Assembly (NCBI GenBank): GCA_029907415.1
Contig: JARYLX010000001.1
Coordinates: 1-36,505 of the forward strand
Source: Melioribacter sp.
GTDB lineage: Bacteria > Bacteroidota > Ignavibacteria > Ignavibacteriales > Melioribacteraceae
Direction of reading: 5' to 3'
DNA: 36,505 nt
This document shows, piece by piece, positions 4,595 through 36,505 of the stretch. The notes beneath the pieces are model-generated. The model was not told the origin of the DNA. It ran no database searches and was given only the letters and a program-made list of their open reading frames with translations. Each line of letters opens with the position of its first letter. The stretch's first letter is position 1. The position numbers and the translations under genes are program-made.

Positions 4595-7500
4595 TCAATT
4601 TCCTCCGAATGGATGTTTCTTAATTTTGCTATGTAAGTAACATTAGGTTTGATATTTAATTCTTCCAGTACATAGTAGGATAAATTATGATTTCGAAGTT
4701 TAGATATTTCAGAATCAGGGTCATTCATATCACCAAAAATGATTGCATTAGAAGGACATGCCTGTTGACACGCTGTAACAACATCATTCCCTTTAATTTC
4801 TCTTCCTTCTTTAATTGCATTAGAACGAGCTTCCATAATTCTTTGAATACAAAAAGTACATTTTTCCATCACTCCTCTTGAACGCACTGTAACTTCTGGA
4901 TTATTAACAAGTGATGTTAATTCATTTTCGTAATATGCGTTTTGAAAATGGTCTCTAAAATTATAGAAATTAAATCTTCTTACTTTGTATGGACAGTTAT
5001 TTGAACAATACCTCGTTCCGACACATCTATTATAGACCATTTGATTTAATCCATCAGGACTATGATTTGTTGCACTTACTGGACAAACATTTTCACAAGG
5101 TGCATTGTCACAATGCTGACACAACATCGGTTGATTGCTTACAATTGGTTCTTCTTCTGTTCCTGAATAATACCGATCAATTCTAATCCATTGCATTTCT
5201 CTGCTTCTTTCAACCTGATCTTTACCAACTACTGGAATATTATTTTCAACATTACATGAAGCTACACATGCATTACATGCAGTACATTTATTTAAATCAA
5301 TAGCCATTGCCCACTTAACACCAGAAAATTTGTGTTCCCTTGTAATGCTGAATAAGTCATGTTTTTCTTTATGTAAGAAATGAGGTTCTTTTTGATACTT
5401 AACTATCGTTCCTTCCTGAATTATTTTTCTAATTCTATGAAAATCTTTAACAAATTTATCATCTAAAGAATGGTGTTCCTGTGTGGCTGCTAAGATATGT
5501 TTACCATTTGATTTTTTTATTTTAGCATTAGTATAAATAAATGGTGAACCAGTAAAGTTTTTTGACATTAAATTAACTGCATTAAATCCAACATCTTTAC
5601 CTACTTCTCCAACTACTTTTCTTCCGTATCCTAATTCAATATGAATTGTATCGTCGTTCATTCCAGGCTGAATAAATACAGGCAAAACTAATTTTCTATT
5701 TTCAACTTCTATTTCTACTAAATCATTCATTTCAAGATTTAATTTACTAGCTGTCTTTTTAGATATGGCTGCGTAATTATCCCATGTTACTTTTGTGACA
5801 GGGTGAGGTAATTCCTGAAGCCAGCCATTGTTCGAAAATTTACCATCGCCTATAAAATAATTTTGAGTAAGATGAACCACATAATCACTTTTTATAACTT
5901 CATTCTTTATATAATTAATTGATTCTGTTTTAAATTGAGGTATTTTATTTTCTTCGCTAATTAATACAACACCATCATGCAAAGCAGAATACCAGAATGT
6001 TTTAAAATCAACTGATGTTTTTAGTTTACTATAAATTTCAGCTTCAAAATTTTTCATTAAATAATTATGATAAATTTTATCATCGTAAATTTCATTTTCA
6101 TAAATCCAGTTAAGAAGAACAGCTTCTTTTTGTCTTGTATTAAAAATTGGTGAAATAACTGGCTGCATTAAACTATAAATTCCGTTTCTTGCATTTGCAT
6201 CTCCCCAGCTTTCTAATTGATTATTTATTGGCAAAATGTAATTACTTAAAGAAGAAGTTTCGTTATGACTTTCTGTTAACGAAATAACTGTTTTAACTTT
6301 TTTTATTGATTCGTCATAACCAAAATCTTTTGGGAAATGAAATACAGGATTTGAATCAAAATGAATTACTACATCAACTTCACCGCTATTCATTAAATCA
6401 ATTAACTGAAGAATTTCTTCCTGAGTAGAATTTTCATATTGTTTTTTAAATGATATGGAATAATCATAAAGTTTATTATTACCCAGAATTTCATTTAATA
6501 AATTAACAGCAATATGAACATCTTCTGGTAAAGTTTCTCCTGCATAAACAATTGATTTACCTCTATTATTATTCAAATCATTTATGAGATTGTTTAATTT
6601 TTCTTGGTGAATGTTGAAATTATTAATCGAGTAATTTTGAAATTTTTTTATAGCAGTTTTATCTAAATTAATGGCTGAACCATATTTAATTAATTCATTT
6701 ATCAAGCTCATCACAAATTCAAATTGTCGATGAGGTGAGATTCGCAATCTGTAATCAGCCATCATACCTGTAATTGTCATTCGGCTTTCAGCTGCATATA
6801 GTCTATTGTAATTAAGGCTTTTAATGACATCGCGTTTTGAAGTAAACTTAATTGTGTTTTCAATAAAATTTCCTTCATTGCCTAAAAAGTCAGAGTCTAT
6901 ACTTAATACTACTTCAGCTTCATTCCATTTTATAGAGGGGTATTCATGTGTGCCGTAACTTTTAAGCCACGCGTTTCTTCTTTGATTATCATTAAATAAA
7001 TCATATGAAATTATTATTGTGTTGATGTATTTTTTCTTAAACTCTTCAAGAACTTTTTTAGCAGTTGGTGAAATTATTGTATTTGTTATAATTGCAACTT
7101 TTTTGTTATTCCTGATAGAATTTTTTAGAACACCTATGATTTCTTTGTCAATGGATTCCCAGTTTAGTTTTTTATTTTTCTTTAATGGCTCTCTCAATCT
7201 TTCCGGGTCATATAAATTCAATATGCTTGCCTGGCCTTTTGCACAAATTTTTCCTTTATTTATCGGATGATCTGGATTCCCATCAATTTTGATTGGTCTT
7301 CCTTCTCTTGTTTTAATTAATATTCCACATGCATTAGAGCAATATGAACAAGTAGAAGCATAATAATTTGGTATTCCTGGTAAAATTTCTTCTGGACGTT
7401 TATTGTATGGAACTATTTCACCTTTGTCTCGATAATCAGAGCAGGCAGCAGTTGCAAAAGCAGTTGATGCAGACAATAATGCTAAAAATTTTCTACGAGA

Positions 7501-33438: not shown

Positions 33439-33524
33439 GAGTTCAAAATTCATAATTCATTTTCGTCTGCATTAAGCATGCTTGGAAATGATATAAAAAC
33501 TAAATTTGATTGAGGAGATTCAAA

Positions 33525-35762
33525 ATGAAGAAGATAAATATTTTTATACTAATCATATATTTATGGATTACAATAATTATTGATGCACAAACTTTTTCAT
33601 TAATTGGTTATGTTAAAGAAGAAAAAGATGATACGCCTTTGATAGGTGTTAATGTTTTAATAGAAGAATTAAAAATAGGGACAACAACTGATACCGATGG
33701 GAAATTTGAATTCAATAATTTGAAGAGCGGAACATACTCTTTAAAATTTTCCTATATCGGTCATAAAACAATAACAAGAAAAATCACGATTCCTTCAATT
33801 GAACCGATTGTAATAAAACTTGAAGAAGGAATAATTAATTTACAAGAAGTTGTTGTAACTGGAAATCCATTGTCAATTGACCCCAAAAATTTATCTCAAA
33901 GCACTTTATCAATTTCTAACTTAGAACTTCAGATAAAAAGAAATATCAGCATAGCTCAAATACTAAACTTTCAGCCTGGTATTGCAATGCGTTCTAATGG
34001 AATTGCTGCTGCAAGACCAATTATTCGTGGCTTTAGCAACAATAGAGTACTAATCTTAGAAAATGGTCTAAGAATGGGAGATTTATCCAATACATCGGAC
34101 GACCATGCAATATCAGCAGATGGAAATACTCCAGAAAAAATTGAAGTACTTCGAGGTCCTGCAAGTTTACTCTACGGTAGCAATGCAATTGGAGGAGTTG
34201 TAAATATCATCACAGAAGATATTCCAAACTATATTTCGAAAGGGTTGATTGGTGATATAAATTTTGAAAATTCTTCTGTCAATAAAGAATTAAATATTAG
34301 CAGCGATATACATTTTGGATTTGATAAATTTTCTTTTCATTCAAATTATTTTAATCGGTATAGCAAAGATTATACTGACGGCAATGGTTCTTCAGTTTTT
34401 AATTCCGACCAATTTTCAAGAGGATATCAGCTTGGATTTGCTTTTATCCCATCTTTTTTAAGAAGTGGAATCAGTATTAAAGATTATTTTAACAGTTATG
34501 GTATTCCAACCTTTTTCAATGATGAAGAGCAAATAAAAATTAATATGAAGAAAAAAGAATATCGTTTTTTGATTGAAAGTGATAAGATTAATTTTTTTGT
34601 AAACAATTTTAGTCTTAAAGCTGGTTATCAAAATTATGAACATAAAGAAATATTAAGAGCAACAGGGGAAACAGGAACTTCGTTCGGATTAAAATCATAC
34701 AGCTTTGATTTATCCTTCAAACACAAACCAATACGCCTATGGCAGACAAAAAATATTTCTGGTGTTTTTGGGCTCTGGTATCAAAAACAAAATTACAATG
34801 TTTTTGGCGATGAAGCATTTACACCTAATGCAAATTACGATGGAATTGCTGCATACATATTCGAACAAATAAGAATCAACAAATTAAATATGCAGTTAGG
34901 TGTTCGAATTGAAAATAATCGAGTAGTAATTCCTGAATCGATAATTTCTGATACACATTTCCCTGCAGAAGAGAAAAATTATCTTTCTTTCAGCGGTTCA
35001 GTTGGAATTTCTTATAACATTTCTGATGATGTATCTTTGTTTTCAAATATTGCAAATGCATTTCGAGCACCAACAGTGGAAGAACTTTCTTCCTATGCAA
35101 TTCATGAAGCTACAGCTGCCTTTGATATTGGTAATCGAAATCTTAATAAAGAAAACAATCTTGGATTTGATTTAGGCTTACGAGTAAGAAAAGCAAATCA
35201 CTTAGTTGAGCTCAGCAGTTATCACAATATGCTTAATAATTTCATTTACCGAAAACCAACAAATTATTTTTATGATGCAGCATCAAACAAATTTAACGAC
35301 ACTTCCGGTTATCCAGTATTTATTTATTCACAATCAAATGCATCTATTTATGGATTTGAATTAATTGCTCAGTATGAATTTACCAGAAATTTATCTTTAA
35401 CAGTCATGATGGATTATGTAAGAGGCATTGTAAGGGATACAAAAGAAAATTTACCACAAATGCCACCATTTAGATTTTCAATTGAACAAAGATATTTCAC
35501 AGACAATTATTGGTTTGGTTATCAATGGAAATTAGCAGAAGCACAAAATAAGACAGCAGCCGAAGAAAAACCTACAAAAGGTTATGGAATTGTTGATATT
35601 TATTGTGGAGTAAAAATATTAACTGGGAAATTTTTTCATATAATTAGTTTAAAGATTGAAAATTTATTAGACCAGCCTTATAAAGATCATTTATCTTCAA
35701 TAAAAAATTTTGCATATATGCCAGGAAGAAATCTTCAAATGAGTTATAAATTTTTATTTTAA
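33525..35762 (+). CDS. TonB-dependent receptor, ZnuD-like
   Basis: 745 residues from the ATG at 33525, chosen over a TTG five codons earlier because GAGGAG lies 8 bases upstream of the ATG. Signal peptide to about residue 22 (IDAQ), a carboxypeptidase-regulatory-like domain (about 25-105), a plug (about 125-230; RGFSNNRVLIL, EVLRGPASLLYGSNAIGGVV), then a 22-strand type barrel ending in a C-terminal Phe. The barrel pattern (SFRAPTVEEL-like, GNRNLNKE, YGFELIAQYEF, LLDQPYKDHLS, PGRNLQMSYKF) resembles the ZnuD zinc receptors, although the His-rich loop of ZnuD is not seen (YGIPTFFNDEEQ instead). It likely imports a metal or metal complex. Confidence 0.88.
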   Translation: MKKINIFILIIYLWITIIIDAQTFSLIGYVKEEKDDTPLIGVNVLIEELKIGTTTDTDGKFEFNNLKSGTYSLKFSYIGHKTITRKITIPSIEPIVIKLEEGIINLQEVVVTGNPLSIDPKNLSQSTLSISNLELQIKRNISIAQILNFQPGIAMRSNGIAAARPIIRGFSNNRVLILENGLRMGDLSNTSDDHAISADGNTPEKIEVLRGPASLLYGSNAIGGVVNIITEDIPNYISKGLIGDINFENSSVNKELNISSDIHFGFDKFSFHSNYFNRYSKDYTDGNGSSVFNSDQFSRGYQLGFAFIPSFLRSGISIKDYFNSYGIPTFFNDEEQIKINMKKKEYRFLIESDKINFFVNNFSLKAGYQNYEHKEILRATGETGTSFGLKSYSFDLSFKHKPIRLWQTKNISGVFGLWYQKQNYNVFGDEAFTPNANYDGIAAYIFEQIRINKLNMQLGVRIENNRVVIPESIISDTHFPAEEKNYLSFSGSVGISYNISDDVSLFSNIANAFRAPTVEELSSYAIHEATAAFDIGNRNLNKENNLGFDLGLRVRKANHLVELSSYHNMLNNFIYRKPTNYFYDAASNKFNDTSGYPVFIYSQSNASIYGFELIAQYEFTRNLSLTVMMDYVRGIVRDTKENLPQMPPFRFSIEQRYFTDNYWFGYQWKLAEAQNKTAAEEKPTKGYGIVDIYCGVKILTGKFFHIISLKIENLLDQPYKDHLSSIKNFAYMPGRNLQMSYKFLF

Positions 35763-35816: not shown

Positions 35817-35907
35817 GGAGAGGTGGCCGAGTGGCTGAAGGCAGCGGTTTGCTAAACCGCCATAGGGGCTTAAACCTCTATCGCGAGTTCGAATCTCGCC
35901 CTCTCCG
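35817..35907 (+). tRNA. tRNA-Ser(GCT)
   Basis: 91 bases, class II tRNA with long variable arm. Acceptor stem GGAGAGG (35817-35823) pairs with CCTCTCC (35900-35906), discriminator G at 35907. The T stem GCGAG/CTCGC encloses TTCGAAT. The anticodon loop TTGCTAA gives anticodon GCT (35851-35853), reading AGC/AGU. CCA is not encoded. All arms pair fully, so this copy looks functional. Its 3' part is repeated downstream. Confidence 0.97.
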
Positions 35908-35925
35908 CGAAGTTATATCTCTTCA

Positions 35926-36213
35926 ATGGAATATTTTGTTTACATACTTTACTCTCCTTCTCATAATCGTACTTATGTTGGTCAAACTAATGACTTAGTT
36001 TCTCGTTTATCTTATCATAATTCTGGCAAAGTAAAATCAACTAAACCTTTTAGGCCCTGGGTTTTAATTCATTCAGAATCTTTTTCTTCAAGATCTGATG
36101 CTATGAAAAAAGAAAAATGGTTCAAATCAACTTCCGGCAGAAAAAAAATTTCTGAGCTACTTAATATTTATCTTCTTTCTGAAGGCAGTGGTTTGTCCGT
36201 CCCGTCATTCTAA
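35926..36213 (+). CDS. Small GIY-YIG nuclease domain protein
   Basis: 95 residues, a single GIY-YIG domain: VYI (5-7) and YVG (17-19) form the two signature strands, R27 fits the catalytic Arg, and E63 in AMKKEKWFK fits the metal-binding Glu. It begins 18 bases after the tRNA. Residues 85-95 (from SEGSGL) are translated from the truncated tRNA copy and its first insert, and the stop lies inside an insert hairpin, so the native C terminus was probably replaced when the tandem unit formed. Small GIY-YIG proteins of this type are common next to tRNAs in Bacteroidota relatives; their role is not settled. Confidence 0.85.
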   Translation: MEYFVYILYSPSHNRTYVGQTNDLVSRLSYHNSGKVKSTKPFRPWVLIHSESFSSRSDAMKKEKWFKSTSGRKKISELLNIYLLSEGSGLSVPSF

Positions 36214-36247
36214 AAAATGACGGGACATGATCCCGACTTTTGTCGGA
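36196..36247 (+). mobile_element. Insert 1 (anticodon loop), two-hairpin mini-element, TCCG...CGGA ends
   Basis: 52 bases splitting the anticodon G/CT. Begins TCCG, ends CGGA. First hairpin: perfect 11-base arms (36199-36209 with 36216-36226, GTCCCGTCATT and its complement). Second: CCGAC-TTTT-GTCGG (36233-36246). The ends can pair, enclosing both hairpins. Absent from the intact tRNA copy, so its limits are exact. Mobility is inferred. Confidence 0.7.
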
Positions 36248-36275
36248 CTAAACCGCCATAGGGGCTTAAACCTCT

Positions 36276-36313
36276 CGTTTGAGTCCATCTGTCTCTAACG
36301 GAGTCAAATGACT
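36276..36313 (+). mobile_element. Insert 2 (variable region), single-hairpin insert
   Basis: 38 bases; the boundary can shift by 2 because CT is present on both sides (36274-36311 is equally valid). Contains TTTGAGTCC (36278-36286) and GGAGTCAAA (36300-36308), 8 of 9 pairs, with a 13-base loop. The CT on each side could be a 2-base target duplication. It lacks the TCCG/CGGA ends of the other two inserts. Confidence 0.6.
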
Positions 36314-36325
36314 ATAGCGAGTTCG

Positions 36326-36379
36326 TCCGTTTCGTCCTTTGGACGAAACGAGATCTCGTCACTTTTTCAAAGTGACGGA
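36326..36379 (+). mobile_element. Insert 3 (T loop), two-hairpin mini-element, TCCG...CGGA ends
   Basis: 54 bases between TTCG and AATC of the T loop. Begins TCCG, ends CGGA like insert 1. Two perfect 9-base hairpins: GTTTCGTCC (36329-36337) with 36341-36349, and CGTCACTTT (36357-36365) with 36369-36377, separated by GAGATCTC. The body differs from insert 1, but the architecture and ends are the same. Confidence 0.7.
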
Positions 36380-36413
36380 AATCTCGCCCTCTCCGCGAAG
36401 TTATATCTCTTCA

Positions 36414-36505
36414 ATGGAATATTTTGTCTACATACTTTACTCTCCTTCTCATAATCGTACTTATGTTGGTCAAACTAATAACTTAGTTTCTCGTTTATCT
36501 TATCA
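36414..36505 (+). CDS. Second GIY-YIG gene copy (partial, cut by window edge)
   Basis: 30 complete codons plus two bases from an ATG at 36414, 18 bases after the truncated tRNA copy, the same spacing as in copy 1. Product begins MEYFVYILYSPSHNRTYVGQ and differs from copy 1 by one residue (Asn for Asp at 23); there are two base changes in 92. The near identity indicates a recent duplication or ongoing homogenisation. The C-terminal end, which would show the undisturbed sequence, is outside the window. Confidence 0.85.
   Translation, partial: MEYFVYILYSPSHNRTYVGQTNNLVSRLSY

Follow-up and report, generated by a model that had tools for sequence, protein, structure and literature searches.

GIY-YIG nuclease units and hairpin-plugged tRNA copies point to a very small DNA parasite of bacterial tRNA genes

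The tRNA-Ser(GCT) locus of the window

What places a small nuclease gene between an intact tRNA gene and an interrupted copy of that same tRNA? This arrangement lies at the right-hand end of the window, the whole 36,505-nucleotide stretch of Melioribacter sp. DNA analysed here, which is the entire contig C111 of a 457-contig MAG. The order proposed in the initial annotation, an intact tRNA, a nuclease gene, a partial tRNA and the nuclease gene again, was recovered by ARAGORN, Pfam and a repeat search (Table 1), and the array is cut by the contig end, so that at least two nuclease copies are present. The repeat had a period of 488 bp (35926 to 36414) rather than the 344 bases first given for the unit, a figure that describes only how far the leftmost tRNA piece is offset. 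The two gene copies were indeed nearly identical, with 98% identity over 126 comparable nucleotides (35892-36017 against 36380-36505) and 97% over 30 amino acids. A DNA search of the same genome found the tRNA-Ser(GCU) of the window as the sole full-length Ser-GCT match, and the intact gene reads as the regenerated or target tRNA. A TonB-dependent receptor-like gene (33510-35762) lies directly upstream of it; the upstream gene order is conserved with the sister species G002, in which a typA/BipA-like GTPase gene follows the array.

Table 1. Features of the window locus, with one element of the sister-species locus
Feature	Position	Strand	Evidence or remark
Intact tRNA-Ser(GCT)	35817..35908	+	ARAGORN; own-genome DNA search
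GIY-YIG nuclease gene, copy 1	35926..36213	+	ORF list; Pfam PF01541 E 4e-17; AlphaFold2 model
Displaced tRNA piece, tRNA bases 19-35	36179..36195	+	16/17 identical; repeat search, gapped alignment
Insert, 52 nt, anticodon loop centre after tRNA base 35	36196..36247	+	Two hairpins (TCCG...GGA)
Displaced tRNA piece, tRNA bases 36-63	36248..36275	+	100% identical; repeat search
Hairpin-forming insert, variable region	36276..36311	+	Edges uncertain by 2 nt
Displaced tRNA piece, tRNA bases 62-75	36312..36325	+	93%; repeat search
Insert, 54 nt, T loop after tRNA base 75	36326..36379	+	Dyad-symmetric, two-hairpin
Displaced tRNA piece, tRNA bases 76-92 (tRNA 3' end)	36380..36396	+	Repeat search
GIY-YIG gene, copy 2, cut by contig end	36414..36505	+	Own-genome search, 97% over 30 aa; repeat search
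Tandem tRNA-Ser 5' parts	L180 about 5700-5870 (G002:C1:105700)		Anticodon-loop hairpin, nuclease absent

The second tRNA copy proved to be more than the simple 3' part originally described. It comprises tRNA bases 19-92 (36179-36396, 72/74 matching), which are split into four pieces by three structured inserts of about 52, 36-38 and 54 nt, located after tRNA bases 35, 61-63 and 75, in the anticodon loop, the variable region and the T loop. Two of the three inserts are double hairpins that start with TCCG and end with GGA, and the one in the T loop follows the plan TCCGT-hairpin-ACGAGATCTCGT-hairpin-ACGGA. The displaced copy folds far better than its shuffles, both as DNA (z -7.3) and as RNA (z -6.8). 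Hairpin inserts in displaced tRNA loops are the most unusual feature of these loci, and one that the model behind the initial annotation did not predict.

The gene beside the tRNA encodes a protein of 80-95 aa. In copy 1 the GIY-YIG domain occupies about 35926-36162 and scores 62.7 bits (cut-off 22.6) against the Pfam model, while the end of the ORF runs into the displaced tRNA. The Tyr, Tyr, Arg and Glu catalytic residues of the GIY-YIG superfamily were present, and Y6, Y17, R27, H31 and E63 were invariant in 33 nuclease sequences. An AlphaFold2 model of the window nuclease had a mean pLDDT of 97.6, and its closest solved folds were UPF0213 (1zg2, 1ywl), then SLX1, then I-TevI. The protein scored 17.6 bits against NCBIfam TIGR01453, the group I intron endonuclease family, for which the cut-off is 56.05. 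The PADLOC defence library gave a weak partial match to the candidate PDC-S14 (E 3e-4, residues 5-35), a match that the common GIY-YIG fold would account for. The 80-aa domain has no obvious DNA-binding module to give it specificity. The nuclease is under purifying selection, even within arrays (dN/dS 0.04-0.32, including copies of one array). The units of 300-500 bp held only the GIY-YIG ORF and no integrase, in line with the earlier statement that a unit of a few hundred bp between the intact tRNA and the displaced fragment codes for a GIY-YIG domain alone.

Occurrence beside other tRNA and tmRNA genes

Three further such loci were found in the MAG of the window. On C172 the nuclease is flanked by two tRNA-Met 3' parts, and on C11 tRNA-Glu with plugged T loops lies on either side of the nuclease. 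The third locus, on C156 (L178, about 1590-1670), has a tRNA 5' part ahead of tRNA-Ser(TGA), with a double mini-hairpin of 22 nt plugging the D loop of that part; it lacks a nuclease gene and is probably a unit from which the nuclease was lost. The orthologous locus in G002 is filled too, with shared upstream genes at 77-84% nucleotide identity. Its T-loop insert has the same tRNA position and two-hairpin plan as that of the window, with different stems; in the first stem, 3 of 10 pairs differ on both sides with pairing kept (predicted folds). Two tandem tRNA-Ser 5' parts with an anticodon-loop hairpin and without a nuclease lie just upstream of the intact tRNA in G002.

More widely, profile A1 matched in 194/296 genomes of the phylum, with up to 18 matches per genome, and a scan of a contig collection with a second profile, A2, added Bacteroidota, many Patescibacteria, Elusimicrobia, Margulisbacteria and others. 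Among loci with 500 bp on both sides, a tRNA was found within 250 bp of the nuclease at 46/60 loci of the contig scan and at 36/49 loci from relatives (a set with some duplicate loci), in every case on the nuclease strand, and the median gap between tRNA and nuclease was 26-30 bp. At seven loci without a nearby tRNA, a same-strand tmRNA lay no more than 170 bp away, and most of the remaining unlinked loci hold tRNA pieces or reach contig ends. At L019 (1121-1808) a tmRNA and nuclease are followed by a displaced tmRNA 3' end, whose T loop is plugged by a pair of mini-hairpins of 20 nt. Six tmRNA-linked nuclease loci besides L019 were seen, mostly in Patescibacteria. At L025, L115, L135, L139, L150, L167 and L038 no tRNA or tmRNA target that would explain the locus was found nearby; L025, L135, L150 and L167 may be markers of other targets or free-standing relatives. 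The same gene, which the initial annotation had proposed to look for beside other tRNAs in this and sister genomes, thus occurs in relatives and in other phyla, and the case that would have told against its reading, a single fixed duplication with no other tRNA-linked copies, is clearly not what we found, since many tRNAs and tmRNA are involved.

In total, 112 distinct clusters covering 16 isotypes were collected; many host genomes are MAGs whose contig ends are uncertain, and some loci entered the set twice. The tRNA lies upstream in 70 clusters, downstream in 38 and in the middle in 4, and 34 clusters carry at least two nuclease copies. Each array has one intact tRNA, the other copies being partial and hairpin-plugged. 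The units are bounded by the regenerated tRNA at one end and the displaced fragment at the other: the displaced pieces are 3' parts where the intact tRNA lies upstream (55 copies) and 5' parts where it lies downstream (36 copies). Because complete single-contig relatives carry the same arrays, those of the window are not an assembly artefact, and the arrays in single-contig genomes together with the many species also rule out a local duplication. At one tRNA-Arg (L040, G046:C1:1911000-1914500) both layouts meet: the upstream side holds nuclease copies together with 5' parts whose D loops are plugged, and the downstream side a 3' part that has a plugged T loop but no nuclease. At a tRNA-Lys (L278, G380:C62), repeated 5' parts lie beside the nuclease, each with a hairpin replacing the anticodon arm.

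Hairpin inserts, nuclease lineage and occupancy

The displaced pieces were 98.2% identical to the intact neighbouring tRNA (5941/6051 bases), and 123 of 137 displaced copies carried one or more inserts of at least 6 nt. Pure inserts fell in the D, anticodon or T loops in 68 of 92 cases, compared with 34 expected (maximum 50 in 5000 draws), and those inside the 7-nt anticodon or T loops were central, after the third or fourth base, in 36 of 40. In other copies a whole arm is swapped for another hairpin, such as the anticodon arm in L020 and L191. The inserts had a median folding z of -2.8, compared with 0.2 for control segments. One acceptor-stem strand is missing from many displaced copies, while the other strand is identical to that of the intact tRNA. 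Several inserts in different arms of one copy (the window, L011 and L066) need either repeated events or a structural role. We know of no counterpart to such hairpin caps.

The 22-nt inserts consist of two abutting mini-hairpins with 4 bp stems and 3-nt loops. Pairing was kept in 0.886 of their pairs (shuffle maximum 0.75), with several pair types per position, and the loops tend to reverse-complement each other, the first being purine-N-A (RNA-type) and the second T-N-pyrimidine (TNY-type). The inserts are therefore alike on both DNA strands, which indicates DNA rather than RNA. This class fills one nuclease clade (99% support) that includes both Ser and Glu tRNAs and several host groups, so that the type of insert tracks the nuclease and not the tRNA. 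On a tree of all 112 nucleases, built from 80 columns with low support and many open forks, insert class, as assigned by our own rules, changed 9 times compared with 26.4 in shuffles that ignore relatedness (minimum 20). Isotype changed 41 times on the same tree against 70.5 in such shuffles (minimum 66). Between units of one array, differences amounted to 9/1569 in tRNA pieces, 14/1131 in inserts and 85/1090 at fourfold sites of the nuclease, the pairs not being independent.

Occupancy was patchy. In G213, which belongs to a genus with many species, a tRNA-Met locus holds five units, and no GIY-YIG match was found at the orthologous tRNA-Met loci fetched from other species in our sample of that genus. 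At the 18 of these loci where ARAGORN gave the tRNA in the expected orientation, the usual terminator comes directly after the tRNA, and two of the empty tRNA-Met orthologues have the same downstream gene as G213. Other species of the genus carry units at other tRNAs; 22/30 further loci were tRNA-linked, all on the same strand, and one of those scored as unlinked, L252, is the G213 array itself in a fetched piece that starts too late. The recent activity suggested by the initial annotation thus finds support here, where one species has a filled locus and the orthologues examined are empty; the window itself gives it none.

Origin of the units and what they may mean

Recurring as it does next to numerous tRNA genes across many bacteria, the layout suggests a DNA parasite of tRNA genes that is very small and of a kind not described before. 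We consider it fairly probable that the units are minimal, integrase-free selfish units of a homing type that live in tRNA and tmRNA genes, use the palindromes of tRNA arms and regenerate the tRNA. This reading is favoured because the layout is that of target regeneration, except that a GIY-YIG nuclease takes the place of the integrase, and because SegB provides a precedent. SegB, a GIY-YIG homing nuclease of phages, drives tandem amplification of a tRNA-segB unit, with a 718-bp repeat in T6 (PMC13096335). As in our loci, SegB of T-even phages is free-standing and lies beside a tRNA gene, and nuclease and tRNA are amplified together; SegB arrays, however, are phage-borne and hold full tRNA copies, whereas here the hosts are bacteria and the other copies are partial and hairpin-plugged. 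A phage origin is ruled against, since tblastn gave no match to the nuclease in 50,697 phage records and none was confirmed in viral contigs. The UPF0213/SLX1 branch provides the best relatives in sequence and fold; SLX1 cuts branched DNA, but our units have no SLX4-type partner or zinc finger, and their context is tied to tRNA genes. The Allomyces ORF360 in atp6 is reportedly a mobile endonuclease gene of fungal mitochondria that brings in a copy of the end of its host gene. Such genes likewise combine a nuclease with a duplicated target end and displace the original end, but they target protein genes in organelles, and we know of no hairpin-plugged displaced copy among them. The units matched neither TIGR01453, nor islands with an integrase gene, nor, in the genomes sampled, REP or MITE repeats, nor phage-borne SegB, and a homing-type working is proposed.

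In such a working, each unit would consist of one small GIY-YIG nuclease gene and part of its target tRNA. Cutting by the nuclease would fall in the middle of an arm of the tRNA gene; as DNA, the D, anticodon and T arms are palindromic, which would naturally suit an enzyme that is dimeric or senses structure. Recombinational repair would then copy the unit in, leaving the intact tRNA on one side and the displaced part on the other, which is the layout seen. The hairpins that plug the loops or replace the arms of the displaced part, and whose type depends on the nuclease lineage in our clusters, may block both self-cutting of the unit's own copy and its deletion by recombination. Repeated cutting with unequal recombination could give rise to the tandem units.

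The possibility that the system works on RNA appears unlikely to us. The nuclease or another enzyme would then act on the tRNA, and the co-transcribed plugged tRNA would serve as decoy, antidote or regulator, somewhat like toxin-RNA antitoxin pairs, the plugged loops making it bindable and not cleavable. That the nuclease and the displaced tRNA always lie on the tRNA strand, that insert structure is kept as the sequence changes, that insert class follows nuclease lineage and that the sites include the centre of the anticodon loop all fit this idea. Yet the apparent dyad symmetry of the 22-nt inserts on both DNA strands is needless for an RNA function, the loss of one acceptor-stem strand with the other identical also speaks against it, and so do the nearest solved relatives of the nuclease; to our knowledge, no GIY-YIG enzyme cuts RNA. 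A reading of the inserts as tRNA introns, suggested by the exon-like look of the pieces, was rejected, as part of the tRNA is missing from most displaced copies and an intact copy exists beside them.

Very unlikely, in our judgement, are mini-islands mobilised in trans by tyrosine integrases, in the form of short cassettes with att flanks at anticodon- or T-loop crossover sites with the nuclease as a passenger. Integrases favour anticodon and T arms, and both tRNA and tmRNA genes are hit here; but the units contain no integrase, nearly all loci share one nuclease family, the inserts lie precisely where crossover would occur and vary with the nuclease clade, and the pieces cover most of the tRNA and not merely a short att core. 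Islands that integrases place in tRNA and tmRNA genes are recognised by a regenerated target with a displaced fragment, and tyrosine recombinases are the sole integrase family known to use such genes as targets (PMC4383910). Our loci share with this class of islands (the Islander class) the regenerated target, the displaced fragment, the choice of tRNA and tmRNA targets and the tandem arrays; they differ in having no integrase, a size of about 300-500 bp and interrupted displaced parts. Just as improbable is the chance arrival of dispersed palindromic repeats, REP- or MITE-like, in spare tRNA copies, in which the nuclease would be irrelevant. The inserts are palindromic and lie at palindrome centres, REP-like repeats are common in bacteria, and mobile double-hairpin elements have been reported in fungal mitochondria. 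Among 39 genomes, however, the strict double-hairpin pattern occurred only in the window insert, and 400 kb of one array-bearing genome held no GC-rich double mini-hairpins of 22 nt, which do recur in the tRNA arms of array loci, so that dispersal found no support in these samples; the link of insert class to the nuclease tree also opposes it. Slightly less probable still, given the present statistics, is neutral debris, an old tandem duplication of tRNA and nuclease in decay with hairpins as mutational accidents. Some units are indeed truncated or contain stop codons, but debris would not be expected to show purifying selection on the nuclease, loop-centre placement or retained pairing, nor the excess of differences at nuclease fourfold sites over those in tRNA pieces within arrays.

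The homing-type reading has difficulties of its own, among them the several inserts in different arms of one copy and the apparent lack of a specificity module in the nuclease. Since the intact tRNA keeps the presumed cut site, self-cutting must be limited somehow, for example by flanking sequence or low expression. Point mutations would protect the displaced copy equally well, and protection alone is therefore not a reason for hairpins with a conserved architecture; it accounts for the position of the inserts and not for that architecture, and here the reading is weakest. From the features described above we infer cutting, copying by recombination, mobility and a purpose for the hairpins.

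No description of these loci was found in the literature searched, mostly without subscription papers and preprints. The program Islander requires an integrase and rejects candidates under 2 kb (PMC4383910); island finders discard such units by design, because they have no integrase and are under 2 kb. In addition, the arrays interrupt assemblies and lead to too many partial tRNAs being counted. If the homing-type reading is true, a parasite of only 300-500 bp would live on essential single-copy tRNA genes of many bacteria, and, as a natural home-and-rescue element, it would illustrate how an essential RNA gene can house a nuclease while the host survives. We hold more tentatively the possibility of a very widespread and categorically new minimal bacterial element, an 80-aa structure-sensing nuclease that recognises the arms of tRNA-like genes, copies itself into tRNA and tmRNA genes without integrase or transposase, and whose lineage-specific hairpin caps would be functional, as a mark of self and non-self or as a repair template. 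The hairpin caps pose a testable question, namely why each nuclease lineage has its own hairpin architecture, and the loci would provide a large set of small nucleases that may have specificity for tRNA genes.
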